DNA of 64,000 bases from Saprospiraceae bacterium (GTDB lineage Bacteria > Bacteroidota > Bacteroidia > Chitinophagales > Saprospiraceae), in contig JABSSL010000001.1 in NCBI GenBank assembly GCA_013214355.1, forward strand, positions 148,404 to 212,403. Reading direction: 5' to 3'. Position 1 is the first letter of the stretch. Each line of letters opens with the position of its first letter. The notes beneath the pieces are model-generated. The model saw only the letters and a program-made list of their open reading frames with translations, had not been told where the DNA came from and did no database searches. Positions 6,801 through 28,706 of the stretch are shown piece by piece. Both the position numbers and the translations under genes were made by a program.

Positions 6801-7607
6801 CTATACCCCACGAATTTTCCGATACATCTGCTGAGTCTCCGGCAAGGGTTCAATCCCAAATTCTTGGTCCAATACCTTTTGACATTGTTGGTAAGTCTTG
6901 ATGGCCATCGGGCGATTGCCTTTGGCAAAGTAGGCCTCCATTTGAATGCGGTAAGCGTCCTCCCAGGTGCTATCTATTTGGAGGGCCTGCTGGGTCAGGC
7001 GGATACTCTCCATAGGATTGTCTTTGACCAACAACTCGCTTAGACTGATAATGGCGCCTAAAGCGATAAGTTGGATTCGTTCTCGTTCTTCACTCGACCA
7101 ATCCTCGTATAGGCGATTGGGTAAATATACACCTTGGTATAGGTTGATGGCTTCTCGGTAGGCTTGCTGGGCGAGTCCGGGATCATCTAGCAGCGCTTGA
7201 TTACCCAAGGCTACGAACTGGTCCAGGGCTTCTACATCAATCCAAATATTTTCGAAACGCAACTGGTAAGTTGCTCCTTGTCTAATGATGTATTGCGACT
7301 CGGTTCGACTTTTACGATCCGGTTCCAACACCTTGGTTACGCCATGATGAGCTACCTTAAAATTTTGCTGCCCCGTTTTTCCGTCTACCCAAATTCGATC
7401 AATGATTTGTTCTTTGTGCAGGGCGTGACGATGACGGTTGGTCACCAGAAACTGAAAGAGCTGTTGAGACACATCTCTCCCCCACTCCTTAGAGCCAATA
7501 GCCTCATCATCTCTCCACAACTGAAAGTTCCCTAAAGTTTGTACCCTTAGGCTAACTCGATCTCGCCAAGTTCGCAGTTCTGCTATTTGATCTTCAATAG
7601 CTATCAC
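6801..7607 (-). CDS. SARP/AfsR-type transcriptional regulator (winged helix plus BTAD)
   Basis: The 268-residue protein starts at GTG 7607, immediately after the TAA of the phasin-like gene and in the same frame. Residues about 17-115 form an OmpR/PhoB-like winged helix beginning RVQTLGNFQLW, with a helix HKEQIIDRIW. Residues about 116-265 are the TPR-like bacterial transcriptional activation domain, with WIDVEALDQF, YQGVYLP, EDAYRIQMEAY and the closing EFGIEPLPETQQMY. SARP proteins activate promoters through heptamer-like direct repeats spaced 11 bp. Such repeats are found upstream of this operon and upstream of a second phasin gene (see regulatory entries), so autoregulation and phasin control are inferred. 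There are no effector or ATPase domains, unlike AfsR. Confidence 0.9.
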   Translation of the reverse strand: MIAIEDQIAELRTWRDRVSLRVQTLGNFQLWRDDEAIGSKEWGRDVSQQLFQFLVTNRHRHALHKEQIIDRIWVDGKTGQQNFKVAHHGVTKVLEPDRKSRTESQYIIRQGATYQLRFENIWIDVEALDQFVALGNQALLDDPGLAQQAYREAINLYQGVYLPNRLYEDWSSEERERIQLIALGAIISLSELLVKDNPMESIRLTQQALQIDSTWEDAYRIQMEAYFAKGNRPMAIKTYQQCQKVLDQEFGIEPLPETQQMYRKIRGV

Positions 7608-8159
7608 TTACTGCTGATTTTGGGTCAACTGGTCTACTTTGGCATTTAAGGCAGACACTTCTGCTGAAATGTCCGTCAATTTCTGCATGATTTCCTTAAA
7701 ATCTGATTTAGAAGCTGTCTTCCAAGTGTCGATTTCTAGTTTTTGGCTGATTTCATCCTTCACCTGATGACTAAGATCCTGGATCTGATCCTGAATCTGA
7801 GCCATACCTTTTTTCGGATCCTTGATGGTTTCCATTACCATCTTTGGTCCTTCAACGGCCATCTTCTTCCACATATCGAAACTCTTGGACAAAATCCCTT
7901 TCTGCTCCTCGATGGGTTTATCCTCCATCGCCTGGATAGTGAGATCAGCTAATTTGCTCTGGATAAAAGCAACCACATCATCAAACTTCGAAAAACGCTG
8001 CTCTTCTCCGCCTTGGACATGGCGAATATTGCCCCTCCATTGCACTTGTGGCTCTCCCGATTCATTGTTAAAGATCTTCTGCGTAAAGCGCAGCATGAAG
8101 GAAGCCGTTTCATCTTTTCTTACAGACATATTGTCTTTTATTTTGTGAAGTCTTTCCAT
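7608..8159 (-). CDS. Phasin-like coiled-coil protein
   Basis: The 183-residue cytoplasmic protein starts at ATG 8159 or, equally plausibly, at ATG 8129 (MSVRKDE), which has an A-rich leader. Residues about 20-70 form a small beta-rich module (FMLRFTQKIF, VQWRGNIRHVQ, RFSKFDDVVAFI). The rest is long amphipathic helix with phasin-like character (FDMWKKMAVEGPK, QIQDQIQDLSHQ) and a coiled-coil tail ending VDQLTQNQQ. I recognise no catalytic motif. The likely role is coating a lipid or polyester inclusion, inferred from helix character and from the divergent WS/DGAT gene. Its promoter carries 11-bp-spaced direct repeats. The SARP gene follows with no spacer, so translational coupling is likely. 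Confidence 0.65.
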   Translation of the reverse strand: MERLHKIKDNMSVRKDETASFMLRFTQKIFNNESGEPQVQWRGNIRHVQGGEEQRFSKFDDVVAFIQSKLADLTIQAMEDKPIEEQKGILSKSFDMWKKMAVEGPKMVMETIKDPKKGMAQIQDQIQDLSHQVKDEISQKLEIDTWKTASKSDFKEIMQKLTDISAEVSALNAKVDQLTQNQQ

Positions 8160-8199: not shown

Positions 8200-8245
8200 G
8201 AAAATTACTACAATTCAGTTACACTCCGGTTACAAAACGGTAATA
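8200..8245 (-). promoter_or_regulatory. Phasin/SARP operon promoter with 11-bp direct-repeat operator
   Basis: On the plus strand the hexamers GTTACA, GTTACA and GTAATA begin at 8218, 8229 and 8240, an exact 11-bp period. Read on the minus strand they are TGTAAC-type repeats, and a -7-like box TAATTTTC (8207 to 8200) lies exactly 10 bp downstream of the nearest repeat. No convincing -33 TTG is present, as expected for an activator-dependent promoter. The geometry equals that at 24248-24304 and matches SARP operators. Binding by the neighbouring SARP protein is inference. Confidence 0.7.
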
Positions 8246-8523: not shown

Positions 8524-10347
8524 GTGCTAGACAAGATACTTAAGCAATTTACCAATTCCAATGTGAAGCCTATATCGGGCATGGATGCGACTTTTTTATA
8601 CATTGAATCGCCCACCAGCCCTATGCATATCGGAAGTGTAGCCGTGATTGAAGGCTCTTTGGGCTTCGATCAATTTCGTTCCACCATTCTTTCCCGGATT
8701 CATATGATTCCAAAGTTGCGCAAGCGGCTTTTGTATGTTCCCTTCAAGATCGATTATCCCTATTGGGTCGATGATCCCAATTTTGATATCGATATGCATA
8801 TCCAACATATTGCTTTGCCGAAACCGGGGAATTGGAAAGCCTTGCGTAAGGTGGCTTCCCAAATCTTTAGTGATCCTTTGGATCAATCTCGCCCGCTTTG
8901 GTCCTTTACCTTTGTAGAAGGCTTAGATAGCATACCGCAGGTTCCAGCGGGTTCCGTGGCTGTCATTTCAAAGATTCACCACGTAGCCATTGATGGTGTG
9001 GGAGGAGCAAGTCTATTGAGTTTGCTGTTCGATTTCACGTCTGAGGCCAAACCCATTCCGGAGCCGCGCCCCTGGAAGCCAGAGCCTTTGCCTAATGAAG
9101 TGGAAATGGTGATCCGAAGCTCAATGAGTTTTGTGGAAAAACCATTGAAATTTCCGAAACTGATCACCGAAGCTGTCACCGCTTCTTTCAAAACCGGCGT
9201 ACTCACGAGGGTCAATAAGTTGGAATTGCCTACTGCCCCTTTTTCCGCTCCGCAAACACCTTTAAATGGCCTTCGCTCGGCACAACGTAAATGGAACTCG
9301 GCGATCCTATCTTTAGACCGAGTAAAGGCCCTAAAGAGCGTCATGGAGGTGACCTTAAATGATGTGGTGTTGGGAATCTGCGCTGGCGCCTTGAGAAGAT
9401 ATCTAAAAGAAAAGGATAAACTACCGATCAAGCCATTAGTAGCGATGGTCCCCATCTCCACCCGGACCAAGTCTGAGGATCACGATGCTGGTAATCAGGT
9501 ATCCTCTATGCTCATTCAATTGGCAACCAATATAGAAGATCCGATTGAACGCTTAGAAGCCATTCATGAAAATACAATTCGAGGAAAAACGTATCAAGGA
9601 GCACTCGGGGCTAAGACCCTAGCCAATATGGCGGAGGCCATACCTTTTGGTGTCGCCAATCAGGCAGCTAGGCTATACACTCGCTTCCAGATCTCCGAAA
9701 TGCATAATCCCGTCTTCAATCTCACGATTACCAACGTTCCTGGGCCGCAGTTTCCCTTGTACCTAAACGGACACAAGCTGCTATCCATCATGGGCATGGC
9801 CCCGATTATCGATGGCATGGGCTTGATCATCACGGTATTCAGCTACAATGGCTTGATTACCCTCAGTCCTACCTCGGATGCTGATACGATGCCTGATATT
9901 GATGTTTTCACCCGCTATCTTCGCGAATCCGCCAATGAGTTAGAAACCCTGATTTTGTCTATGAAAGACAAGAAAACGAAGGCGAAAAAGAAGCCGAAGG
10001 TAGCGGCCTCAGATGCTATTTTTGAACACTTCAAAAAGCACCTAAAACTCAATGCCGAGCACATCAAACCGAACAATGGTCTATTCCAATTTATTGTGAC
10101 GGGCGATGTCCCTAGAGAGTGGCGCTTAGATTTAAATCAATCACCACCGGTAGTACGAAAAGGAAAGGTGAAGGAACCCGATTGTACTTTCACCATTGCC
10201 GACCATCATTTGGTTAAGATTGGACAAGGCAAAATGAATTTGCAGGCCGCCTTCATCCAAGGCAGGCTTAAGATCCAGGGAGACTCCGGCAAAGCCATGA
10301 AACTGGGAACTATCCTGTCAAAGTTGCCGAAATTGGAGAAGGTTTAG
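8524..10347 (+). CDS. Wax ester synthase/diacylglycerol acyltransferase (WS/DGAT) fused to a C-terminal SCP2 domain
   Basis: The 607-residue protein starts at GTG 8524; a GTG at 8563 directly before KPISGMDATF is an alternative. Residues about 15-470 are a complete WS/DGAT: the N-terminal SGMDATFLYIE, PMHIGSV, the catalytic HHVAIDG (152-158), NDVVLGICAGALRRYL, NVPGPQFPLY and the C-terminal IIDGMGLIITVFSYNG. The family esterifies fatty acyl-CoA to fatty alcohol or diacylglycerol, making storage wax ester or TAG at the inner membrane. A lysine-rich linker (about 482-495) leads to residues about 500-607, an SCP2 sterol/lipid-carrier fold (LFQFIVTGDV, PDCTFTIADHHLVKI, AFIQGRLKIQGD). The fusion suggests lipid is handed directly to or from the active site; that is inference. 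Confidence 0.93.
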   Translation: MLDKILKQFTNSNVKPISGMDATFLYIESPTSPMHIGSVAVIEGSLGFDQFRSTILSRIHMIPKLRKRLLYVPFKIDYPYWVDDPNFDIDMHIQHIALPKPGNWKALRKVASQIFSDPLDQSRPLWSFTFVEGLDSIPQVPAGSVAVISKIHHVAIDGVGGASLLSLLFDFTSEAKPIPEPRPWKPEPLPNEVEMVIRSSMSFVEKPLKFPKLITEAVTASFKTGVLTRVNKLELPTAPFSAPQTPLNGLRSAQRKWNSAILSLDRVKALKSVMEVTLNDVVLGICAGALRRYLKEKDKLPIKPLVAMVPISTRTKSEDHDAGNQVSSMLIQLATNIEDPIERLEAIHENTIRGKTYQGALGAKTLANMAEAIPFGVANQAARLYTRFQISEMHNPVFNLTITNVPGPQFPLYLNGHKLLSIMGMAPIIDGMGLIITVFSYNGLITLSPTSDADTMPDIDVFTRYLRESANELETLILSMKDKKTKAKKKPKVAASDAIFEHFKKHLKLNAEHIKPNNGLFQFIVTGDVPREWRLDLNQSPPVVRKGKVKEPDCTFTIADHHLVKIGQGKMNLQAAFIQGRLKIQGDSGKAMKLGTILSKLPKLEKV

Positions 10348-13736: not shown

Positions 13737-14738
13737 CTATCCCGGATCAGACTCAGCGCCAGACTGTTGACGCAGGAGGCCTTTGAAGGCGTCGCGTACC
13801 GTATTGCCTTGATGAACTACCTTGTATACCTCATGTGAAATGGGCATTTCAAGATTGTACTGTTCCGCTAATTCCATAACTACAGTACAAGTCTTCACTC
13901 CTTCGGCAACCATTGACATTTCCTCAATGATTTCATCCAAGGTACGGCCTTGTCCAAGGTTAAAACCAACGTGTCGATTACGGCTGAGTGTACTAATACA
14001 AGTGGCTACCAAGTCACCCATTCCGGCGAGGCCAGCGAAGGTTTCGGGTCGGCCGCCCATCGCCACACCGAGGCGGGTTAGCTCTGCCAGGCCTCGGGTA
14101 ATTACCGCAGCACGAGTGTTATCACCCGCACCCGCACCGTCACCCATTCCGGCAGCAATGGCAATCACGTTTTTCAAGGCTCCTCCTAATTCACACCCAA
14201 TTACATCATCATTGGTATATACCCGGAACAAACCCGTGCGAAAAATCTTCTGTAAGGCTGTCGCAATCGTATCATCTACCATAGCAATTACACTGGCCGC
14301 TGCTTGTCCAGCAACGATTTCTCGAGCTAGGTTCGGCCCCGTAAGCAGGCCGGCAGGATGTCCTGGCATCAGGCTCTCTATTACTTCCGTCATCCGCATG
14401 CGGGTTCCTTGTTCCAAGCCTTTTGAGAGACTAACGATCGGAACCCAAGGGCGAATGTAGGGCTTAGCGTCATTAAGTACGTATCGGAAACTGTGGGAGG
14501 GGATGCCCATGACAATGACGTCCGCATCCTGAACTGCCTCTTTTAAAGAATGGGTAGCAACTAATGATTCCGTAAGCTTTGCTCCAGGTAAGTATTTCTC
14601 GTTGCGATGATATTTATTGATTTCGTCAACCGTCTTTGCATTTTTAGCCCAAATTTTGGTAGGGGTGTTTTTAGCTGTGAGTGAAGCTACGGTAGTTCCC
14701 CAGGAACCACCGCCTAGTAGGCCAACCTTAAGTTTCAT
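13737..14738 (-). CDS. gpsA: NAD(P)H-dependent glycerol-3-phosphate dehydrogenase
   Basis: The 333-residue cytoplasmic enzyme reduces dihydroxyacetone phosphate to sn-glycerol-3-phosphate, the backbone for glycerolipids. The N-terminal nucleotide fold carries GLLGGGSWGTTVA; the conserved SLSKGLE, LLTGPNLAREI, GCELGGALKNVIAIAAGMGDG (catalytic lysine) and AGMGDLVATCIS follow. Length is standard. It lies 21 bp downstream of the PlsB-HAD-PlsC acyltransferase gene, so product and consumer are probably one operon. Confidence 0.96.
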   Translation of the reverse strand: MKLKVGLLGGGSWGTTVASLTAKNTPTKIWAKNAKTVDEINKYHRNEKYLPGAKLTESLVATHSLKEAVQDADVIVMGIPSHSFRYVLNDAKPYIRPWVPIVSLSKGLEQGTRMRMTEVIESLMPGHPAGLLTGPNLAREIVAGQAAASVIAMVDDTIATALQKIFRTGLFRVYTNDDVIGCELGGALKNVIAIAAGMGDGAGAGDNTRAAVITRGLAELTRLGVAMGGRPETFAGLAGMGDLVATCISTLSRNRHVGFNLGQGRTLDEIIEEMSMVAEGVKTCTVVMELAEQYNLEMPISHEVYKVVHQGNTVRDAFKGLLRQQSGAESDPG

Positions 14739-14759: not shown

Positions 14760-17700
14760 CTATTTCTTGACCAATTGCCCATTGGTTTTTTCCTTCTTCG
14801 GTGCTTCCTCTTGCCCTAATTCTTTTAGGTAGATCGCACGAATCTTGGCAACATGCTCGTTCAGCTTCTCCTTCTTCCAGCGTTTAGTGGAAATTGGTGG
14901 AAAAGCAACGACCTCAATGGCCACGGAACGCAGTACATTGGTACCGCGGGGCATGGCATCATGGGCATTACGGATGACTACTGGCACAATCGGAACACCG
15001 GCTTGCATCGCCAAATGGAAAGCTCCTTTTTTGAAGGGGCCTAGACGATAATCCCGGCTACGGGTTCCTTCCGGGAAAATGATGATGGACGTTCCTCCCT
15101 TTAAGGCATCAACCGCGGGCTTCATGGCTTCAATCGCCTTTTCCCTGTTTTTTCGATCGATAAAAATCACGCCGGAAGCTGCCATCAGCTGACCGATAAT
15201 TGGCATATTCCTCAGCTCTTTCTTCGCAATTCCAGTAGCATCTTTACGAATCAACTTGGAGACGATAAACAGGTCCGCACTACTCTGATGGTTAAAAATA
15301 AATACCGCGGGGCGCTGCGACCAAAGATGTTCTTCTCCCTTGACAACCATCTCAATCCCGGCAGCCTTTACCACAAAATCGCCGACTGAAGCCATCAAAG
15401 AATTCACGCCATCCTGCCAGGACAAACTAAAAGCGCCTTTGGTGACTCCGGAGATCACCGCGGGGATCAAGCTACCCAAGGCTGCACCTGTTCGTACAAA
15501 ATTGACCAGCCCAGGGCGCGCCTCGTCGTTGAATCGATAGACAGGCCAGTTATTCTTAAACGCCAGGGCTGAAAGCTTGGTATCAGGATTGATCGGGCGA
15601 GGATTACCTACAATTTCCAGTAAGGGTGCATCCGCAGCACTATCGGTATAGAAATAGGATTTAGTAAGGTCCAAATTAAAATCCTGGGCTAAGGATTTTG
15701 CTGCATGAGCTTTTCCTTCTCCCCAACAAGCAGGCTCTATGATGTTTCCAGTAAACTTACCCTTTTCTACTTCCATTCGGGTACACATCACATGGTGGAT
15801 GTCTAGGTCGCGAGCAACGGGATCTACTTGATAGGGAGTAGCCGCTGAAATAATGGCTACTGTATGTCCCATAGCGAGGTGAGCTTTCACTAAAGCACGA
15901 GACTCAGGGTAGATTTCATCGGCCAAGTGTTTAAGATAAACCTCCTCTCCCACTTCAATGAATAATTCTTCCTTTACCCCTTTAACGCCTTGCGCTCCTA
16001 CCGCCGCTAAGCCAGCAAAATTACCTTGCCCCATGGCGTACACTATGACCCCTGCAAATTGCGCAACGATTTCCCTGGCCGTCATCTTCCCACTTAACAG
16101 ACGAGTCTGAAAAAACTCCTTGGCAGAAAAATTCTTAATCAAAGTGCGATCGAGATCGAAGAAAGCCCCTACCTGTGGTCCCACCTCACCAGCCATGATC
16201 GTATTCGTCAAAGCCTCCGTTTTAGAGCCAGGAACAATTTCACGCTCGATCGGAATCACAGACACGGCCGCATCATTAACCGGTTTACTCAATATGATGT
16301 GTTGTAGGTCATTGATATGCTGTGCAATACCAATCAACTTCTCTTGGAAAGCCTCAATCGCTTTTTGCTTATCATCCTTAGCATTCGGAACTAGATCGAG
16401 ATTTCTTGCCAGCCGTAGTCCATTTTGCAAGAAAGGCTTGGATATAGAGTCAACTCTTTGAATGCGGCCCTGCCAATGCATTTCTTCGCTCAAGAACATG
16501 CACTCCTTGATGAAAGCCTCATCCTCAAAGGGGCGGGAAGGCTTCCAGCTTTTCAATGCATAAGCTACCACTCGATAAGCCTCAATATAAGAGTGCAAGA
16601 CTACCGGCGCTACAATCACTTCTTCCTGCTTGATGAAGGCCAGTTTTTCAGTTTTAGGTGCTTTGACTAGCTCTGGCCAATTGGGATCCAACATCTCCAG
16701 GTTAGCCTCAATCTCATCAGAGAACTGTGCTTTCCTGGAATAGAAGAATTCAAACTTAAACAAAGAGCGGAGTTCCATGATCGTCGACCAAAAGGCCTCC
16801 TGCCGGACCTCCTCCTGTGTCGTGGCCGATTCTAGCAGTGCTATTTCAATAAAGGCTCGATGATACAAATGATGCACCGACATATTGGCATAATACGTGG
16901 CCTGCATGTAACTTTCTGAGTTCAGCACATACTTCGCATCTAAGGTTTCACCATGCTTCAAGATTAGATTGGCACGTTCCAGAATATTTAGCGCCGCCTG
17001 TACACTCTTACCCGTCGGTTGGCCTCGATCTACCAATGCGTCTGGTTTAGTCTCTTCGATCAACCGCATCAGATCTACCACATCACGCTCGATGGTATTC
17101 TTATTCAAGGAAAACTTGCTGAGTAAAGAAATACAGATCAAGGAGGTGGTGGTCACTGGAGTGATCTGATTGATTCGATGTACCAGTTCCAGCGCGAATC
17201 GCGACAATTTCCCAGTGTGGGCTTCCGGCTGCTTCCCTTCTGTAATGATCGCTACGGAATTTTCCGCATTGATTTCTACTGGCTCACCGAAACGAATGGA
17301 GATTTTACCAAAACTACCATCCATTTTCCGGACATAATCAATAAACCATTTCAGGCTCTCAGGGTTTTTGTTCTTGCCACGCCCTTCTAGCGTCATATCC
17401 TTTACGTCCGGAATCAGATCATATACAATGGATACCGGCACATACTTTACCTCTTTACCCGATTCTTCTTCCGCCTCGCGAATATACTTGAGAATACCCA
17501 CTTTAGGCCAAACCAACTTACCTGTACGCGATCGCGTGCCTTCGATAGCCCACATGAAATGCCCTCCGTCCTTTACGAGAGAAGCAATGAAATGTCGCAA
17601 AGCAGCTTTGTAGATCAGATCGTTCTTGAATGAACGACGAATAAAAATCACACCATTTTGCCTAGCTATCTGCCCAAAACCCAAGAAATCCATATTGATC

Positions 17701-18053
17701 CCTGCAAAAGTATAAGGGAAAGGAATGCCATGACGAGCCAAGGTAATGGCCAAGACAAACATGTCCAGATATGTTTTATGCGTCATGACAAAGGCAATCG
17801 GAAACCGCCGAGCCAGTTTGGTCAGTTCCTTGACTTCCGTTGGGTTTACATCGATTGTCTTCTTGTAGGCACGGGAAAGAATATACTGAGAGAGCTGAAT
17901 CCCCATGATATTAGCCAAAGGTTGGTGTACGGTCTGTAACTCCTTAAGGCATTCGGCAGCTTCTTTTTGCACTTGATCATAGGGCTGACCAAGTTTTTCA
18001 GCAATGTCAATTAGTTTTTTTTGAAAGGCAGCATCGTTGAATAGTCCATCCAT
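14760..18053 (-). CDS. Three-domain acyltransferase: PlsB-like GPAT, HAD-IB phosphatase-like, PlsC-like LPAAT
   Basis: The 1097-residue protein joins three modules. Residues about 40-600 resemble PlsB glycerol-3-phosphate acyltransferase: HKTYLD (92-97), GVIFIRRSF (134-142) and EGTRSRTGK (171-179), with the long PlsB C-terminal part. Residues about 625-850 are a HAD-IB domain: FFDLDRT (D633, D635), IISAAT and YFYTDSAADAPLL. Residues about 870-1080 are PlsC-like: NHQSSAD (H922, D927), GVIFIDRKN and FPEGTRSR (993-1000). Known families suggest G3P to lysophosphatidate to phosphatidate, with the HAD domain perhaps a phosphatase. Mycobacteria carry separate PlsB2 and HAD-PlsC genes beside a WS/DGAT gene; here they form one chain. 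It precedes gpsA. Confidence 0.92.
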   Translation of the reverse strand: MDGLFNDAAFQKKLIDIAEKLGQPYDQVQKEAAECLKELQTVHQPLANIMGIQLSQYILSRAYKKTIDVNPTEVKELTKLARRFPIAFVMTHKTYLDMFVLAITLARHGIPFPYTFAGINMDFLGFGQIARQNGVIFIRRSFKNDLIYKAALRHFIASLVKDGGHFMWAIEGTRSRTGKLVWPKVGILKYIREAEEESGKEVKYVPVSIVYDLIPDVKDMTLEGRGKNKNPESLKWFIDYVRKMDGSFGKISIRFGEPVEINAENSVAIITEGKQPEAHTGKLSRFALELVHRINQITPVTTTSLICISLLSKFSLNKNTIERDVVDLMRLIEETKPDALVDRGQPTGKSVQAALNILERANLILKHGETLDAKYVLNSESYMQATYYANMSVHHLYHRAFIEIALLESATTQEEVRQEAFWSTIMELRSLFKFEFFYSRKAQFSDEIEANLEMLDPNWPELVKAPKTEKLAFIKQEEVIVAPVVLHSYIEAYRVVAYALKSWKPSRPFEDEAFIKECMFLSEEMHWQGRIQRVDSISKPFLQNGLRLARNLDLVPNAKDDKQKAIEAFQEKLIGIAQHINDLQHIILSKPVNDAAVSVIPIEREIVPGSKTEALTNTIMAGEVGPQVGAFFDLDRTLIKNFSAKEFFQTRLLSGKMTAREIVAQFAGVIVYAMGQGNFAGLAAVGAQGVKGVKEELFIEVGEEVYLKHLADEIYPESRALVKAHLAMGHTVAIISAATPYQVDPVARDLDIHHVMCTRMEVEKGKFTGNIIEPACWGEGKAHAAKSLAQDFNLDLTKSYFYTDSAADAPLLEIVGNPRPINPDTKLSALAFKNNWPVYRFNDEARPGLVNFVRTGAALGSLIPAVISGVTKGAFSLSWQDGVNSLMASVGDFVVKAAGIEMVVKGEEHLWSQRPAVFIFNHQSSADLFIVSKLIRKDATGIAKKELRNMPIIGQLMAASGVIFIDRKNREKAIEAMKPAVDALKGGTSIIIFPEGTRSRDYRLGPFKKGAFHLAMQAGVPIVPVVIRNAHDAMPRGTNVLRSVAIEVVAFPPISTKRWKKEKLNEHVAKIRAIYLKELGQEEAPKKEKTNGQLVKK

Positions 18054-21164: not shown

Positions 21165-22322
21165 CTACTTGACTAGCGATACCACTAGCCAAGGCGCTTG
21201 AAAGCGGTATTCTTCAAGTTTCAAAAAGCTGGCGAAACGTGGGAGCATCAATGATCGACGACGATTACCCAAGTCAATCACCAATTCATCTCCAAATTTC
21301 TTCAGTTCGATCTCTTCCTCTCCTACGAAAGGAAGGCGAGTCTTAAAGAAGTATCCGTTTTCATTCTCAATCACCTCAAAAGGCTTGTCCAGGTATAAAA
21401 CCTCAGCGGCTTCTTTCTCCTCATACAGAGAACTACTGATGGCTTCTAACTGCTGAAGACCAAATACCTCTCTGCCCTGGTGTTGTACTTTGAGGATGGG
21501 CAGTGGATTGAAACTTTCCTCAATTTCCTTGATGTACTTCTTCTGCGAGGACAAGTAATATTTGAAGGCCTCCCCTACTTTCTCTTCAGGTAGAATCCGA
21601 TTGATCACTACTGCATCCACATTATAGCCGTACAACTGCAAGTAGGTGTAGGCTCGGCGGGCCTCTTTAATTACCATCCGCTCTGGGTTGGTAACAATCC
21701 GGATAGAAGCAACTTCCGGATCTAGAAACACCTTTTGTATGCTTTCCAATTTCTGGAAGAGCTCATCCATTTCTTCTAGCCCCTTATCCAAGGGTACACC
21801 AGTAAAAAATTTCACACCTTTCGTTACCGTTTTGACGGCTAGGTTCTTTCTCGAAAAGGCCTTTGTCATCCAAGATTTAGCCACCTGTGGAAGAGAAAGC
21901 AGGGTGAGGGTTTCTCCAGTAGGTGCACTATCGATTACGATGACATCGTAGGTTCCTTCGTTGTAGTATTTTTCTAACCACAAAAAAGCTGAAGCCTCCT
22001 CCATTCCCGGTAGAACAGACAACTCCTCTGCCACCACATTTTTCACGCCTTTCCAGCGAAAGATGGTGTTCATTAGATTCCTCATATTATTCCAATACTT
22101 CTGCATGGAATAATACACATCAAACTCCTGAGCGTACAAGTTAGGGGCAATTTCGGTTGGTTCTGGACTCAACTGAATGTCAAGCGCATCAGAAAGACTA
22201 TGAGCTGGGTCAGTGGAAATAATGAGTGTTTTTTTCCCTTCCTTAGCTGCTTTTAAAGCGGTAGAAGCCGCTACTGTTGTTTTCCCAACTCCACCTTTAC
22301 CCGTAAATAGGATAATTCGCAT
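21165..22322 (-). CDS. ArsA/Get3-like ATPase with C-terminal HSP20-like domain
   Basis: I take ATG 22322 as the start (MRIILFTGKGGVGKTT); a frame open to 22370 runs into the palindromic repeat copy B, which argues against the longer form. The 385-residue protein has the deviant P-loop GKGGVGKT, switch I STDPAHSLSDALD, switch II IDSAPTGETLTLLSLP and VTNPERMVIKEARR. The last 80 residues (PFEVIENENGYFFKTRLPFVG onward) form a small beta sandwich of the ArsA_HSP20 type. No metal-binding cysteines typical of arsenite pumps and no arsB gene are present, so a Get3-like client-protein targeting role is more likely. Its position beside phasin genes could point to inclusion proteins; this is speculation. 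Confidence 0.88.
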   Translation of the reverse strand: MRIILFTGKGGVGKTTVAASTALKAAKEGKKTLIISTDPAHSLSDALDIQLSPEPTEIAPNLYAQEFDVYYSMQKYWNNMRNLMNTIFRWKGVKNVVAEELSVLPGMEEASAFLWLEKYYNEGTYDVIVIDSAPTGETLTLLSLPQVAKSWMTKAFSRKNLAVKTVTKGVKFFTGVPLDKGLEEMDELFQKLESIQKVFLDPEVASIRIVTNPERMVIKEARRAYTYLQLYGYNVDAVVINRILPEEKVGEAFKYYLSSQKKYIKEIEESFNPLPILKVQHQGREVFGLQQLEAISSSLYEEKEAAEVLYLDKPFEVIENENGYFFKTRLPFVGEEEIELKKFGDELVIDLGNRRRSLMLPRFASFLKLEEYRFQAPWLVVSLVK

Positions 22323-22349
22323 AAACATTGTTTGGTTCTTCGACAAAGT

Positions 22350-22445
22350 CCCATGTTTGAAGACAATCAAAAATGAAATTCAATGCTTTACTGACAGTTA
22401 TCGTCAGTGGGCGCTTTTTCATCTCATTTTATGCTTGTCCATGGG
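22350..22445. repeat. About 95-bp imperfect palindromic repeat, copy B
   Basis: The outer ends CCCATG (22350-22355) and CATGGG (22440-22445) are complementary. Inside, AGACAATCAAAAATGAAAT pairs with ATCTCATTTTATGCTTGTC, and a central hairpin is CTGAC-agttatc-GTCAG. Arms and spacing correspond to copies A (8264-8358) and C (58276-58366). It lies just upstream of the ArsA-like start and downstream of the phasin-like gene 22589-22957, so it could act as a transcript-end or 5' leader structure. Confidence 0.8.
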
Positions 22446-23054: not shown

Positions 23055-23522
23055 CTAGTTGTTAGAAAACAACTTTTTAAAGCGAGAAGCACTTTCGCTT
23101 AGCTGGCCCTTCACTGTCTCTAGTGTATTGAAAACGATATCCTGCTGCTTGGCTGCCAACTTCAACCCACCTTTTACCGCTTTGGTAGCCACACCTTGCC
23201 ATTTCTCACTGTTTTCAATCGCTCCGTCAACCACCTCTGTAGCCGTTTTCAATGCGTACTCATTTACATCTTTAGCCGCTTTAGCGATCTTCTCTCTGTT
23301 AACCGTCTCAGTAACCCTATTGTATGCTTTATCGTAAGCCTCTTTTACTGGTGCAGTCGCACGGTCTCTAAGTTGCTCACCATTCTCTTTCAGATCTTCC
23401 ACGATCTCAGAAGTCATCTCACGTACTTGTGTATTGACTGTCTTTGCTGCTTCACGGATAGCTTTTACACTATCAGAAAAATCGAATTTCTCGTTTTTTG
23501 GATTTACTTTCTTGTTTGCCAT
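23055..23522 (-). CDS. Phasin-like helical protein
   Basis: The 155-residue protein is almost entirely amphipathic helix, with alternating Lys/Glu and Ala/Val (SVKAIREAAKTVNTQVREM; VNEYALKTATEVVDGAIENS). Residues 125-151 share the pattern KQQDxVxxTLExxKGQ followed by RFxKL with the 23607-24182 protein, so the two are paralogous there. There is no signal peptide and no catalytic motif. Phasin-like proteins coat polyester or lipid inclusions. It lies 84 bp downstream of the HhH-phasin gene and ends at a strong terminator. Confidence 0.75.
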   Translation of the reverse strand: MANKKVNPKNEKFDFSDSVKAIREAAKTVNTQVREMTSEIVEDLKENGEQLRDRATAPVKEAYDKAYNRVTETVNREKIAKAAKDVNEYALKTATEVVDGAIENSEKWQGVATKAVKGGLKLAAKQQDIVFNTLETVKGQLSESASRFKKLFSNN

Positions 23523-23606: not shown

Positions 23607-24182
23607 TTAAGCCAATTTCTTAGCTTCTTTTTTCCAGTCTGCAGGATTCTGTGTTTTGAATCGAGGTCCAGCAGCTTCGAGGATCGGTGCAAGATCCTTG
23701 ATGGCAGCATTAGACAATTGGAAATAAGTGTAGATACCAGCTTCGTTCAACAAGTTTTCCATTTTAGGACCAATACCGTTGATCACTTTCAAATCGTCTT
23801 TAGCAAGATCACTAATAGAGGTTGCTGTTGCTTTCGCACCTTTAGTCGCTTTTGCTTTTGCTTGCTTGGCCAACTCCTTCGCTTTTTGGGCTCTGCGGTT
23901 GTTCCAGCCTACTAGTTTGCGGAAACGCTTGTTACCTGTGGAGTACTGTCCTTTAAGTTCCTCTAAAGTGCTAAGTACTAGATCTTGCTGCTTGCCCATC
24001 ATCACGGTACCTTGATCCAATACTTTCGCCATCAATTTCTGCCACTTAGCTCCGGTTTCAAGAGAAACGTCTACTAGTTGGTCAGTAACATTGATTGCTT
24101 CAGCGTTGAAGTCTTTTACAGTTGATTTGACGTTATCTAGTCTGTCCTGTACGCTTACTGTATTTGCTTTCTTCGTTGCCAT
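23607..24182 (-). CDS. Phasin-like protein with Lys/Ala-rich linker and C-terminal helix-hairpin-helix module
   Basis: The 191-residue protein has three parts. Residues about 10-92 are phasin-like helix and share the KQQDxV/TLExxKGQ/RFxKL pattern with its downstream neighbour. Residues about 96-120 are a basic Lys/Ala-rich linker. Residues about 128-190 form a helix-hairpin-helix module (LKVINGIGPKMENLLNEAGI, then AGPRF and the closing ADWKKEAKKLA) of the type annotated as HhH_5/COG3743. HhH modules often contact DNA, so the protein could link inclusion surface to nucleoid, as PhaM or PhaF does in other bacteria; that is inference. Its promoter carries four 11-bp-spaced repeats. Confidence 0.8.
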   Translation of the reverse strand: MATKKANTVSVQDRLDNVKSTVKDFNAEAINVTDQLVDVSLETGAKWQKLMAKVLDQGTVMMGKQQDLVLSTLEELKGQYSTGNKRFRKLVGWNNRRAQKAKELAKQAKAKATKGAKATATSISDLAKDDLKVINGIGPKMENLLNEAGIYTYFQLSNAAIKDLAPILEAAGPRFKTQNPADWKKEAKKLA

Positions 24183-24247
24183 CTCGTATTTTTTTTGTTT
24201 CCTAAGAAGGATAATTCTTTTGTTTTCCTTTGAATCAAATGACGATG

Positions 24248-24304
24248 CAAATGTATAGGGAGGTAGTTACAGCCGAGTTACAATAGAGTTACACTTCAGT
24301 AACA
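24248..24304 (-). promoter_or_regulatory. HhH-phasin promoter with four 11-bp-spaced direct repeats
   Basis: On the plus strand GTTACA begins at 24266, 24277 and 24288, and GTAACA at 24299: four repeats, exact 11-bp period. On the minus strand a perfect Bacteroidota -7 box TACATTTG (24255 to 24248) lies exactly 10 bp downstream of the nearest repeat, and the start codon follows after about 65 bp. No good -33 box is seen; the repeats occupy that position. This copies the layout at 8200-8245 and matches SARP operator geometry. Confidence 0.8.
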
Positions 24305-24573: not shown

Positions 24574-25077
24574 ATGCAAAATCCGGTTTGTAAGGAAGAT
24601 GTTTTTGGATCGATCTTTTTGGCTGAGGCCGAGGGGCTTCGGAATTTCCTGTATTACAAAACTGGGAATCTACCGCAGGCTGAGGACTTAGTGCAGGAAG
24701 CCTTTGGAAAACTCTGGGAGAATTGTAGCAAGGTAGAGCGAGCAAAAGCCAAATCCTACCTCTTTACGGTGGCTAATAATCTTTTTTTAAATCAAGTGGC
24801 CCATCAGAAGGTAGTTTTGCGTTTCGAAAAGCAACCGCACACCCAAGCCTCCCACCTCACCCCACAATTTCTACTGGAAGAGGAAGAGTTTCGGAAAAGG
24901 CTAGAAGCGGCGATCGCTGCTTTACCAGAAGACCAACGAATTGTATTCCTTATGAATCGAATGGATAAGAAAACCTACCGAGAAATAGCCGAACGGCTAG
25001 ACCTGAGCGTCAAAACGATTGAAAAGAGAATGCACAAAGCTTTACAAGCTTTGAGAAAAGTATCCAAAAAAGTGTAG
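24574..25077 (+). CDS. ECF RNA polymerase sigma factor (FecI-like)
   Basis: The 167-residue protein has sigma region 2 (LRNFLYYKTGNLPQAEDLVQEAFGKLWEN, with SYLFTVANNLFLNQ) and region 4 (IAALPEDQRIVFLMNRMDKKTYREIAERLDLSVKTIEKRMHKALQ). It should direct RNA polymerase to specific promoters and be held by the downstream FecR-type protein. Sigma, anti-sigma and TonB receptor in this order are the classic surface-signalling unit. A 14-bp palindrome, AGCTCAATTGAGCT, lies just after its stop. Confidence 0.95.
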   Translation: MQNPVCKEDVFGSIFLAEAEGLRNFLYYKTGNLPQAEDLVQEAFGKLWENCSKVERAKAKSYLFTVANNLFLNQVAHQKVVLRFEKQPHTQASHLTPQFLLEEEEFRKRLEAAIAALPEDQRIVFLMNRMDKKTYREIAERLDLSVKTIEKRMHKALQALRKVSKKV

Positions 25078-25121
25078 GGTATAGCTCAATTGAGCTGTTA
25101 TATCTACGTAAAGGGATGATT

Positions 25122-26021
25122 ATGGATAAAGACACTTTATATGCACGATGGCTGAGTGGCGAGATCACTGCTGAGGAAGAGCAGGAACTCAAGCAGAGTG
25201 GTGCGTTGGAGGAACTGGAAGCGATTACTCGCTTTACGGATAGCTCCCGTCTTCCTCCCTACGATCCCAAAGCAGCCTTAGAGAAATTCAAAGCTACTCG
25301 GATGCAGCCCAAAGCGGCTAAAGTTCGCCGATTGGATTGGCGCTGGTATGCAGGAGCCGCGGCTAGCGTAACGGTTTTATTGGGGCTTTGGTTTTGGCTG
25401 GGGTCGGGCAATTCCAGCCTGGATGCCGCGCCTGGGGAGATGGCGGAGCGCACCTTCCAGGATGGTTCTTCGATTGTGCTGAACGATGGCTCTCGCATTA
25501 CTTACCAGGACAGTGATTGGGGCGAAGAGAGAAGGATTAGCTTAGAGGGCGAGGCCTTGTTTGACGTAACCAAAGGAGTCCCTTTCATTGTAGAAACGGC
25601 TCAAGGTGAGGTACGTGTTTTGGGCACCTCATTCAACGTCAGAGCCTGGGATGAGCATTTCCGAATAGAATGCTACAGTGGAAAAGTAGCTATCGAAAGG
25701 AATGGCCAAAGAGATACGATCGTGGCGGGTGAGGCTGGACAGTGGCGGGATAATCAATGGGAAATTGCACGCGATCTAGTGGCTACATCTCCTGCTTGGT
25801 CCGATGGAAAATCAGTGTTTAAAGGAGAACCCTGGAATGCTGCTTTTCAGGAACTAGGACGGCAATACAATGTACAAGTAGAACACCCTGACATTGATGC
25901 CCCCTTTGTCGGAAATTTCCCACATAATAATCTAGATACCGCCTTGTACATACTGCTACGTCCTAAAGGGTTAAAGTATGAAACCAGTGCCGACCGTTCT
26001 GAGGTGAGAATTTTCAAGTAA
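25122..26021 (+). CDS. FecR-family anti-sigma factor
   Basis: I prefer ATG 25122 (MDKDTLYARWLSGEI), 6 bp after AAGGG, over ATG 25116. The 299-residue protein has an N-terminal cytoplasmic anti-sigma helix region, a single membrane segment (WYAGAAASVTVLLGLWFWLG, about residues 75-95), and a periplasmic FecR domain (RTFQDGSSIVLNDGSRITY, EGEALFDVTK, PFIVETAQGEVRVLGTSFNV). A C-terminal STN-like DUF4974-type region ends LRPKGLKYETS. It transmits the receptor signal to the sigma factor. Confidence 0.93.
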   Translation: MDKDTLYARWLSGEITAEEEQELKQSGALEELEAITRFTDSSRLPPYDPKAALEKFKATRMQPKAAKVRRLDWRWYAGAAASVTVLLGLWFWLGSGNSSLDAAPGEMAERTFQDGSSIVLNDGSRITYQDSDWGEERRISLEGEALFDVTKGVPFIVETAQGEVRVLGTSFNVRAWDEHFRIECYSGKVAIERNGQRDTIVAGEAGQWRDNQWEIARDLVATSPAWSDGKSVFKGEPWNAAFQELGRQYNVQVEHPDIDAPFVGNFPHNNLDTALYILLRPKGLKYETSADRSEVRIFK

Positions 26022-26105
26022 AACCCAATACTACACCCCTTCATCGAGTAGATCCAAATCTTGTATCTTTAAGCATATCTTTCATCATAATCCCTTGAAT
26101 TCACT

Positions 26106-28706
26106 ATGCGGTGGCATATACTATTGAGTTTTCTGGTAATAAGTATTCCCCAGTTAGTGATAGCTCAAACATCCGTTCTTCAATTCGAAAGTACTCCGCT
26201 GGCGGATGTCTTTAAACAAATTGAGCGCAAGTCAGATCTCACCTTTAATTATGATCAAACACTAGTAGAACCGTATCAATTTACTGGGAAGCTAGCTATC
26301 GGATCAAATAACTACCTAGATAAACTGTTAGCTAGCACTCCTTTAAGTTTTGAAATTCTCAACAAGAACGTTTTGGTCTTTCTGGCGGAGAAGCAGGAAT
26401 ATTCCATTTGTGGCTATCTCATGGATGCCACGTCCAGCTACCCTTTAGGTTACGCCAATATCTTCACTGCAGACGGACTTCAGGGGACACAATCCGCTCT
26501 GGATGGTCGCTTCGAATGTAAAATAACGGCTCGCAAGAACGAGTTGATCACCTTAAGTTATTTGGGATATCAGAAAAAGAAGGTTCCAATTCAAACCTTT
26601 GCTGGAGATAACTGTCCCACCTTTTTGCTAAACATGGATCCCCTCGTATTTGGCACAGAAATTATCGTTAAAGATTATATTCTTGATGGTATCGAGGAAG
26701 GGGATCATTACAATGCGGTAGATATCAGTTTCCAACGGATTGCCAATAACTATGTAAACATTGAACAAGACTTACTGAAGACCATCCAATATCTACCCGG
26801 AATCTCTAGCAGTGACGAAAGCGCTACCAACATCCAGATTCGTGGCGGATCGGCAGATCAAAATTTGATCCGTTGGGAGGGAGTAAGCCTGTATGAACCT
26901 GGACACTTCTTTGGAATGATCTCAGCTATCAATCCTTTTGTGGTGGAAAATGTGAAGGTTTACAAGGGAGTATTCGATCCTTCTTATGATGATCGAGTGG
27001 GTGGCGTGGTAGATATATCCTTGAATGATTCCATCGCTACGACCTTCAAGGCTGGCTTAGGCACCACGCTGACTGAAGCACATGCTTTTATCGATTTGCC
27101 CATTCAGCCGAAGAAATTGTCTCTATTATTATCCGGTAGGCGATCGCTTACCCCTTTATTTGGTACGCCTACTATGGAAAGCTATACCAATAGGGTATTT
27201 CAAGGCACCAAAGTGGTGGAAACAGAAGATGAACTAAGCCCTGAGCAAGCCCTGAGGTTTTATGATTGGAACGGCAAACTCAATTGGCAACTGGCCAAAA
27301 ATGCTCGCCTGAAACTAAGCTACTTCAAAAGCCAGAATGATTTCAACTTTACGACTCAGCTTTTTGAAGAAGACTGGCTGACGACCGATGATGTGATCTT
27401 TGGCACCGAGGCCATTAGCACAAGTCTAGATCTCGCCCTTAGTCCAAAGTGGTCCAGCAAAATCTTTGGCAGCTATTCAAACTATAAAAATGACTACAAT
27501 TATTTAATTGAAGAGGAGGAGGAAGACAGCACGGGAGCACAGATTTTTCTCAACAATGTTTTCAATCAGATACGCGACCTCTCCCTTGGTCTGACTAACC
27601 ATTGGGCCTGGACGCCTAATATTTCTTTACAATTGGGATACACCTTCAACCAAAAGTTAGTGGATTTTAATATTGATTACAGATCGATCTTTGAAGGGCA
27701 ACACCAAGATCTGAATAATCAAATAGGAAGCTTTCACAACCTATATTCAAGTTTGCAGTATCAAAATCAAAAGTGGCAATTAGATTTTGGACTTCGGGGC
27801 ACCTACTACCAGGAAGTCCAGCAAATCGCCCTTTCCCCTCGTTTCAATGCTCAGCTGGCTCTGAATAAGAAGCTGAAGTTGAAGTTTTCGGCAGGTCTAT
27901 TGCAGCAATACATTACGCAGTTGCGGGAATTTGGAGAAAATGATCTCGAGATCAATAGCCCGGTCTGGGTGATTAGTCGAACCGAAACCAACAATTCACA
28001 AGAAGCTCAAAAACTGGCGCTAGGTGCTCTTTACCAAGGCAAAGGGTGGCTATTCGACATAGAAGCCTATCATCACTTTACTAGGGGATTGTCGACCTAC
28101 TCCTCTGCCTTCCGGAGACAAGACAATATAGAGGAATTCGCCTCCGGAGATTCTAGAGCTAGTGGAATCGACCTATTAGTGACCAAGCACTGGAAAAACT
28201 ATAAGCTGTGGTTCAATTATAGTTTTAGCGATGCTACCTACCTTTTCCCAGCTATTGAAGAGGAGCCTTTCGCAGCGACAAATAATCAGCCACACAAGCT
28301 GAGTGTTATGAATAGCTTCACTCATGGCCAATGGACATTATCCCTCAACTATCAATATCGCAGTGGTTTACCGTTTTCCGCGCCGGAGGATCTTGAAGCG
28401 TATTATGATGAAGAGGATGAGGAATTTTATTATGAATTGCTTTACCCTTCACTCAACGCTGATAAACTCCCCGACTATCAGCGCCTAGATCTAAGTTTAA
28501 GTCGAAAATTCTCTATATCTGGAAATAATGGAAAGGGAGAAGTAGCCTTATCCTTCCTCAACGTATTGGATAGTGAAAATCTCTTTCAGCGGGATCACTA
28601 CATATTTGTCGATGAAGAACTAGAAGATCCAGAACCTCAATTGGGTGTATTCGATAGATTGCTGTTGGGTCAGAGTATGCAGTGTTTATTTCGAGTCTAT
28701 TGGTGA
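26106..28706 (+). CDS. TonB-dependent receptor with STN signalling and carboxypeptidase-like domains
   Basis: The 866-residue outer-membrane protein begins with a signal peptide (ends VIAQ), then an STN signalling domain (about 22-95), a carboxypeptidase-regulatory-like domain (about 98-175: GYLMDATSSYPLGYANIF), a plug (LLKTIQYLPGISSSDES, NIQIRGGSADQNLIRWEG) and a 22-strand barrel ending LFRVYW. It imports a ligand and signals to FecR. No SusD partner follows, so a sugar-polymer role is not indicated; siderophore or small-molecule uptake is as likely. A possible -7 box TATCTTTA lies near 26067. Confidence 0.93.
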   Translation: MRWHILLSFLVISIPQLVIAQTSVLQFESTPLADVFKQIERKSDLTFNYDQTLVEPYQFTGKLAIGSNNYLDKLLASTPLSFEILNKNVLVFLAEKQEYSICGYLMDATSSYPLGYANIFTADGLQGTQSALDGRFECKITARKNELITLSYLGYQKKKVPIQTFAGDNCPTFLLNMDPLVFGTEIIVKDYILDGIEEGDHYNAVDISFQRIANNYVNIEQDLLKTIQYLPGISSSDESATNIQIRGGSADQNLIRWEGVSLYEPGHFFGMISAINPFVVENVKVYKGVFDPSYDDRVGGVVDISLNDSIATTFKAGLGTTLTEAHAFIDLPIQPKKLSLLLSGRRSLTPLFGTPTMESYTNRVFQGTKVVETEDELSPEQALRFYDWNGKLNWQLAKNARLKLSYFKSQNDFNFTTQLFEEDWLTTDDVIFGTEAISTSLDLALSPKWSSKIFGSYSNYKNDYNYLIEEEEEDSTGAQIFLNNVFNQIRDLSLGLTNHWAWTPNISLQLGYTFNQKLVDFNIDYRSIFEGQHQDLNNQIGSFHNLYSSLQYQNQKWQLDFGLRGTYYQEVQQIALSPRFNAQLALNKKLKLKFSAGLLQQYITQLREFGENDLEINSPVWVISRTETNNSQEAQKLALGALYQGKGWLFDIEAYHHFTRGLSTYSSAFRRQDNIEEFASGDSRASGIDLLVTKHWKNYKLWFNYSFSDATYLFPAIEEEPFAATNNQPHKLSVMNSFTHGQWTLSLNYQYRSGLPFSAPEDLEAYYDEEDEEFYYELLYPSLNADKLPDYQRLDLSLSRKFSISGNNGKGEVALSFLNVLDSENLFQRDHYIFVDEELEDPEPQLGVFDRLLLGQSMQCLFRVYW

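Follow-up and report, generated by a model that had tools for sequence, protein, structure and literature searches.

Within the window, the 64,000-nucleotide stretch of a Saprospiraceae bacterium genome analysed here, the gene for a phasin-like protein with a C-terminal HhH domain is preceded by an array of direct repeats and a promoter box (site 2; Table 1). On the minus strand, from 24304 to 24248, the site reads TGTTAC-TGAAG-TGTAAC-TCTAT-TGTAAC-TCGGC-TGTAAC-TACCTCCCTA-TACATTTG, i.e., four units at an 11-bp period followed after 10 bp by a perfect Bacteroidota -7 box, which appears as CAAATGTA (24248-24255) on the opposite strand. The original prediction had placed this site correctly, and its perfect box 10 bp from the nearest repeat is confirmed (spacer 24256-24265); of the four hexamers that it described at this period, those at 24266, 24277 and 24288 are exact copies of GTTACA, whereas the unit at 24299 (GTAACA) carries one mismatch. 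The ATG of the HhH-phasin gene, at 24182, lies 65 bp downstream of the -7 box, and transcription would start near 24243. Genes for a FecI sigma factor, FecR and a TonB-dependent receptor (24574-28706, plus strand) are divergent from this promoter.

A related site in the same window (site 1, 8234-8200, minus strand) consists of two TGTAAC repeats followed after 10 bp by TAATTTTC, a -7-like box without the final G of TAnnTTTG. It leads into two adjoining genes that would form one operon, the first for a 183-aa companion protein and the second, at its end, for a 268-aa SARP regulator. The offset proposed to be common to site 2 and to positions 8200-8245 is present, with 10 bp from the repeat at 8218 to TAATTTTC, although the box is imperfect and the perfect repeat units start at 8218 and 8229; the hexamer at 8207 (ACTACA), previously counted as the fourth repeat of site 1, sits in the spacer and touches the -7 box, and is probably not a repeat. 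Between the two operators lie genes for a wax ester synthase/diacylglycerol acyltransferase (WS/DGAT) with SCP2, a glycerol-3-phosphate dehydrogenase and a GPAT fusion, which together constitute a neutral-lipid synthesis island. By its domain content, the fusion (14760-18053, with a HAD-IB phosphatase) could make diacylglycerol in one protein. An ArsA/Get3-like ATPase with an HSP20-like domain (21165-22370, minus strand) is encoded downstream of the phasin-like genes, with relatives in 3/80 of the SARP loci compared below, and an ArsA-like open reading frame likewise follows the phasins in locus L069 (10473-11630).

Table 1 Features at and around the two operator sites, with positions in the window
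Feature	Coordinates	Strand	Evidence or remark
Site 2, repeat unit 4 (TGTTAC), most upstream	24299-24304	-	One mismatch to TGTAAC
Site 2, repeat unit 3 (TGTAAC)	24288-24293	-	Sequence
Site 2, repeat unit 2 (TGTAAC), upstream half of core operator	24277-24282	-	Sequence and genome scan
Site 2, repeat unit 1 (TGTAAC), downstream half of core operator	24266-24271	-	Sequence and genome scan
Site 2, -7 box TACATTTG	24248-24255	-	10 bp after repeat unit 1
Phasin-like protein, Lys/Ala-rich linker and C-terminal HhH, 191 aa	23607-24182	-	HHH_5 4.2e-05, PhaH phasin 7.5e-06, both below cut-off
Second phasin-like gene, 155 aa	23055-23522	-	34% to residues 7-97 (N-terminal half) of the HhH protein
Third small gene, 122 aa	22589-22957	-	Weak Phasin_2, below cut-off; relatives in 1/80 loci
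GPAT - HAD phosphatase - acylglycerol-phosphate acyltransferase fusion, 1097 aa	14760-18053	-	Relatives in 33/80 SARP loci
Glycerol-3-phosphate dehydrogenase	13737-14738	-	Relatives in 32/80 SARP loci
WS/DGAT with SCP2	8524-10347	+	Relatives in 62/80 SARP loci
Site 1, upstream repeat TGTAAC	8229-8234	-	Sequence
Site 1, downstream repeat TGTAAC	8218-8223	-	Sequence
Site 1, -7-like box TAATTTTC	8200-8207	-	10 bp after repeat
Companion gene of SARP, conserved, 183 aa	7608-8159	-	Weak phasin similarity
Small SARP regulator, predicted OmpR-type winged helix and BTAD, 268 aa	6801-7607	-	Proposed operator-binding activator; BTAD 1.8e-19

We compared the frequency of the pattern with shuffled and reversed controls. 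The bare repeat pair (up to two mismatches) matches the window 8 times, whereas shuffled sequences average 3.43 matches and a count of 8 is reached in 2 of 100 shuffles; exact GTTACAN5GTTACA has three matches in the 11.2-Mb genome, all within sites 1 and 2, and the reversed control also has three. Taken alone, the repeat pair is weak evidence. Without the -7 box, the hexamer pair (up to two mismatches) gives 450 matches genome-wide versus 843 in the reversed control, which is too weak, and therefore only the full operator was used. In its TGYAAC form and with up to two mismatches, the full operator with the -7 box matches the own genome at four positions and the reversed control at none. Sites 2 and 1 are the best matches (0 and 1 mismatch, respectively), and the other two carry two mismatches, one (L203) overlying a mutY-like gene on the opposite strand and the other (L204) adjoining a response-regulator gene, with its box pointing away from that gene. 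When at most one mismatch is allowed to TGTAAC-N5-TGTAAC-N10-TAnnTTTG, only sites 1 and 2 are found in the 11.2 Mb. Weaker three-unit GTTACA-like runs at the 11-bp period, each pair with two mismatches, occur elsewhere in the own genome (G000) at C29:3413-3440, C10:31175-31202 and C1:147066-147093.

The genome-wide scan by which the original prediction was to be checked shows that the pattern does not fall at random positions. Across 60 genomes (own genome included), the operator with up to one mismatch has 11 matches in 8 genomes, against 1 in the reversed control, and all 11, by comparison of coordinates, lie directly before phasin-like or SARP-operon genes. A close SARP orthologue (at least 49% identity) is encoded in 11 of the 60 genomes, and the operator at this threshold is present in 8 of these 11 versus none of the 49 without SARP, where four genomes with only weak BTAD matches (G004, G011, G029 and G054; 23-35% identity) are counted as SARP-negative. 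A random draw would yield this split with a probability of about 6e-8, or about 1.5e-5 when each genus is counted once (5/8 genera versus 0/48), both being rough values for related genomes. Among the SARP-bearing exceptions, G037 has TGCAAC and a TTnnTTTG box, G021 has a degenerate copy with two mismatches, and G018 (L063) has the repeats and the box with a spacer of 9. In a class-wide sample of 295 genomes, exact matches (TGYAAC form) occur only in the own genome and in G165, where the match (L172) is not before a phasin gene and the genome has no SARP at E <= 1e-40; at that threshold, no SARP was found among the 295 beyond that of the own genome, and the family is therefore patchy.

When named genomes were scanned using the SARP alignment, 129 relatives were obtained, from which 80 loci were kept, belonging to Saprospiraceae, many Flavobacteriaceae (Polaribacter, Winogradskyella, Lacinutrix, Tenacibaculum, Ulvibacter, Croceivirga) and others. 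A phasin-like gene lies within the examined stretch in 54 of the 80, and in 51 of these 54 the operator precedes at least one phasin-like gene (TGY and YA variants allowed); within the loci examined, no operator with up to three mismatches was found in L068, L101, L114 and L128. Whole-genome searches covered 48 SARP-bearing genomes, drawn from 49 of the 80 loci with L093 left out, at least three of which (G352, G354 and G361) are also among the 60. These contain 57 exact sites (TGYAAC form) in 36 genomes, against none in the reversed control, in line with the original view that two promoters sharing sequence, period and offset are difficult to attribute to chance. Judged from the loci examined, the 12 genomes without an exact site comprise 7 with a one-letter variant, 1 with the spacer of 9 (G018/L063) and the 4 named above with none up to three mismatches. 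When distinct exact sites are pooled from the loci (leaving out those with less than 120 bp of following sequence), 97 of 98 precede a phasin-like gene, 88 recognised by direct similarity to the HhH gene and 9 via a profile of small phasin-like proteins; much of this pool comes from SARP loci, so that the whole-genome counts make the fairer comparison. The operator is retained where the phasin gene is distant from the SARP gene, and several Saprospiraceae have it at a phasin promoter on a different contig from the SARP gene, pointing to a diffusible factor. Given their relatedness, the SARP-bearing genomes do not represent independent events. Two complete operator-promoter modules about 80 bp apart precede one phasin-like gene in L083 (8932/9013), L085 (8967/9046) and L094 (9035/9112), with further pairs at this distance in L099 (9041/9118) and L129 (8826/8905), and in loci labelled Polaribacter the second repeat can be TGCAAC (L095 at 8837, L103 at 8826, L119 at 10360).

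The geometry of the operator is sharply defined. The pattern TGYAAC-TGYAAC-YAnnTTTG at period 11 and spacer 10 is present in 76 of 128 regions upstream of phasin-like genes (regions shorter than 200 bp left out); since the pattern was defined from such sites, its sharpness outweighs this count. Other periods from 6 to 16 (at spacer 10) or other spacers from 3 to 18 (at period 11) give no match in the same 128 regions, and the period-11 operator at any spacer tested is found for none of 698 other genes. The operator consensus is TGYAACTCATYTGTAACT-N9-TAnnTTTG, with the box starting 10 bp after TGTAAC, 9 after the TGTAACT heptamer and 8 after TGTAACTC. By analogy with the flavobacterial TAnnTTTG element, which lies at -12 to -5 (PMC9723704), the two core repeats would occupy -39 to -18. 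This arrangement resembles the afs box of Streptomyces AfsR, described as two 11-bp direct repeats at -40 to -19, and SARP sites generally, whose 3' repeat is 8 bp from the -10 element (PMC10936776). Two sequence hallmarks of a SARP operator are found, namely direct repeats of 11-bp (or 22-bp) period and a 3' repeat about 8 bp from the -10 equivalent, overlapping the -35 region if the start lies where we infer it. Unlike the Streptomyces afs box, the repeat here is TGTAACT and the -10 equivalent is the Bacteroidota TAnnTTTG.

The regulator encoded behind site 1 carries a BTAD domain (PF03704, 1.8e-19) over residues 123-266, as expected of a SARP; the Pfam search named no DNA-binding domain in it, and the NCBIfam AfsR family matches residues 17-265 (3.9e-06, below its full-length cut-off). 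In a sequence search of solved structures, designed TPR proteins rank above AfsR (E 0.0062), so that this search did not decide the matter; the fold comparison did. The AlphaFold model, built from 11 orthologues, has a pLDDT of 79 and a pTM of 0.77, and is weak in its DNA-binding part, over residues 41-120 (block-mean pLDDT 35-69). With Foldseek, AfsR in its transcription complex occupies ranks 1-3 and EmbR ranks 4-6, and VIA alignments to AfsR and EmbR, which begin at residues 13-19, end at 268 and cover 233-242 residues, reach Z 14.9-16.0; TPR proteins also reach scores of up to Z 12.9, which the BTAD part would lead one to expect. The comparison points to an OmpR-type DNA-binding domain joined to the BTAD, with the N-terminal part modelled at low confidence, and the predicted fold is that of the small SARPs of the Streptomyces AfsR/SARP type. 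Loci L019-L022, from three genomes of the window's genus and from G032, encode another BTAD protein of greater length (about 415-425 aa, 26-32% identity).

A homologue of the companion gene is present in 78 of the 80 SARP loci, or in 79 of 81 when the window is counted as well. In a comparison of 11 picked loci rather than all 80, the box before the SARP operon is present with 0-1 mismatch in the window, L051-L053, L055, L062 and L067, and with 2-3 mismatches in L057, L058 and L060, accompanied by a TAnnTTT box at the same offset; it was not found in L054. Its presence is confined to the window's genus and some other Saprospiraceae, and in the Flavobacteriaceae loci examined the sequence preceding the companion gene scores at background level; autoregulation is therefore not general, and the two-promoter wiring is lineage-specific. 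Judged from the sequences compared, the conserved part of the regulon is the phasin target.

The genes behind the operator lie in a neutral-lipid context. The second phasin-like gene (23055-23522) has relatives in 50 of the 80 loci at E <= 1e-10. WS/DGAT is found in all 11 SARP-bearing relatives versus 4 of 49 others, one of the 4 being a weak partial match. PhaC_N (PF07167), the sole PHA-synthase marker searched, is found in none of the 11 SARP-bearing genomes (own genome included) and in none of 25 further ones, a subset of the 48 described above; among the genomes without SARP it occurs in 4 of 49, one below cut-off. With WS/DGAT in all 11 SARP-bearing relatives and PhaC_N in none, the regulon probably serves neutral-lipid droplets, and a reading of the targets as PHA-type phasins is disfavoured by the absence of PhaC_N from the SARP-bearing genomes searched. 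As for the two-promoter phasin regulon of the original prediction, the two places in the genome stand, with the SARP gene in the operon behind site 1, but the "phasin" is most likely a lipid-droplet coat, and the gene context suggests that the phasin-like proteins coat triacylglycerol/wax-ester droplets. The HhH protein consists of a helical N-terminal part (in a low-confidence model), a Lys/Ala-rich linker of variable length and the C-terminal HhH domain; its model is poor (pLDDT 61, pTM 0.34) and confident only at about residues 131-190.

Our data strongly favour the reading in which this feature serves as operator and promoter in a SARP regulon that governs neutral-lipid storage in Bacteroidota. 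As a plausible mechanism, the small SARP (6801-7607) would bind as a dimer, side by side on two neighbouring 11-bp direct repeats (TGTAACTnnnn), and these repeats, at about -39 to -18, would overlap the region upstream of the -7 box that is normally contacted by sigma region 4, thereby allowing the dimer to bring the housekeeping sigma/RNA polymerase to TAnnTTTG in the manner of AfsR at the afs box. Two promoters would respond in the own genome, that of the HhH-phasin operon (site 2) and that of the SARP's own operon (site 1, autoregulation), and the output of the regulon would be the phasin-like proteins, most likely as a droplet coat.

Among the alternatives, the one that survives best, though we consider it unlikely, keeps the SARP at the operator but has it repress, or bind only jointly with the companion product (7608-8159). 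The box does overlap the stretch immediately preceding the -7 box, where RNA polymerase sits, the companion gene is nearly always retained (78/80 loci), and MLDSR of Rhodococcus is described as both activating and repressing (PMC5504291), but known SARPs activate from such a position (PMC10936776, PMC10972967). Moreover, no DNA-binding domain is recognised in the companion protein. Direct repeats of 11-bp period are also used by PhoP/PhoB-type regulators, so that an OmpR/PhoB-type response regulator, and not the SARP, might occupy the repeats as a Pho-box-like site. In Streptomyces, the site of AfsR is itself a target of PhoP (PMC10972967), and one of the two 2-mismatch matches (L204) adjoins a response-regulator gene; however, the box of L204 points away from this neighbour and L203 overlies the opposite-strand mutY-like gene, while the genome has just two copies of the operator (up to one mismatch), both at storage-lipid genes, and the operator follows the SARP gene from genome to genome, making such a site improbable. 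That site 2 is instead a promoter of, or for, the FecI-type ECF sigma factor (24574-25077) would fit the adjacent, divergent position of the sigma gene, yet the operator faces the other way, its -7 box is a housekeeping-type one, and a relative of the sigma gene is present in only 1 of the 80 SARP loci, so that the comparison of loci largely refutes this very unlikely reading. Chance repeats in AT-rich intergenic DNA, which the equal counts of exact repeat pairs in the own genome and its reversed control (3 and 3) and the 2 of 100 window shuffles that equal the observed count might suggest, are refuted by the conservation of the full operator at an invariant geometry (57 sites against 0 in the 48 genomes), leaving this explanation a negligible probability.

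SARPs have been studied mainly as activators of antibiotic production in Streptomyces, with EmbR as a mycobacterial relative. Unlike those of the Streptomyces SARPs, the targets of the proposed SARP regulon are storage-lipid coat-like genes rather than antibiotic clusters, and they belong to a different phylum. At PHA granules, PhaR is the regulator of phasins. The target proteins share a weak phasin-family similarity with the PHA phasins, whereas in contrast to the PHA phasin/PhaR system, the SARP-bearing genomes searched contain no PhaC_N and the context is WS/DGAT with GPAT. Another parallel is the Rhodococcus jostii regulator MLDSR, described as encoded in one operon with the droplet protein MLDS, a DNA-binding protein, and as controlling both MLDS and itself (PMC5504291). 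By analogy, the SARP would likewise be a dedicated regulator in one operon with a droplet-type protein, but with a SARP and direct repeats in place of the XRE-type helix-turn-helix and palindromic sites described for MLDSR. DNA binding by the HhH protein is a guess, and its role as a droplet-to-DNA tether like MLDS is speculation.

Sediment Bacteroidota (Polaribacter, Winogradskyella, Lacinutrix and others) are described as having an SCP2-bearing WS/DGAT with an acyltransferase gene nearby, resembling the arrangement in the window, and the same paper calls the synthesis and accumulation of neutral lipids in Bacteroidota unexplored; a word search of its main text found none of the terms SARP, regulator or transcriptional (PMC10351704). 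Among the matches listed in the open-licence PMC literature, judged by title and the opening of the abstract, none describes a Bacteroidota SARP operator or regulon. We regard the SARP regulon as known in kind, and a Bacteroidota SARP regulon with storage-lipid targets as a new variant. More tentatively, and more likely wrong than right, the regulon might sense the lipid-storage state across Saprospiraceae and Flavobacteriaceae, with targets that coat droplets and tether them to the chromosome via the Lys-rich linker and HhH, as an independent counterpart of Rhodococcus MLDS/MLDSR arisen from an antibiotic-type activator. The finding extends the SARPs to another phylum, where one has a sharply defined candidate operator at storage-lipid genes, next to a -10 element of a different kind, and yields a candidate regulator, operator and droplet proteins for the culturable Polaribacter, Winogradskyella and Lacinutrix. 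It suggests that a Bacteroidota promoter retains the geometry by which SARPs recruit sigma, and this invites a comparison of activation mechanisms.
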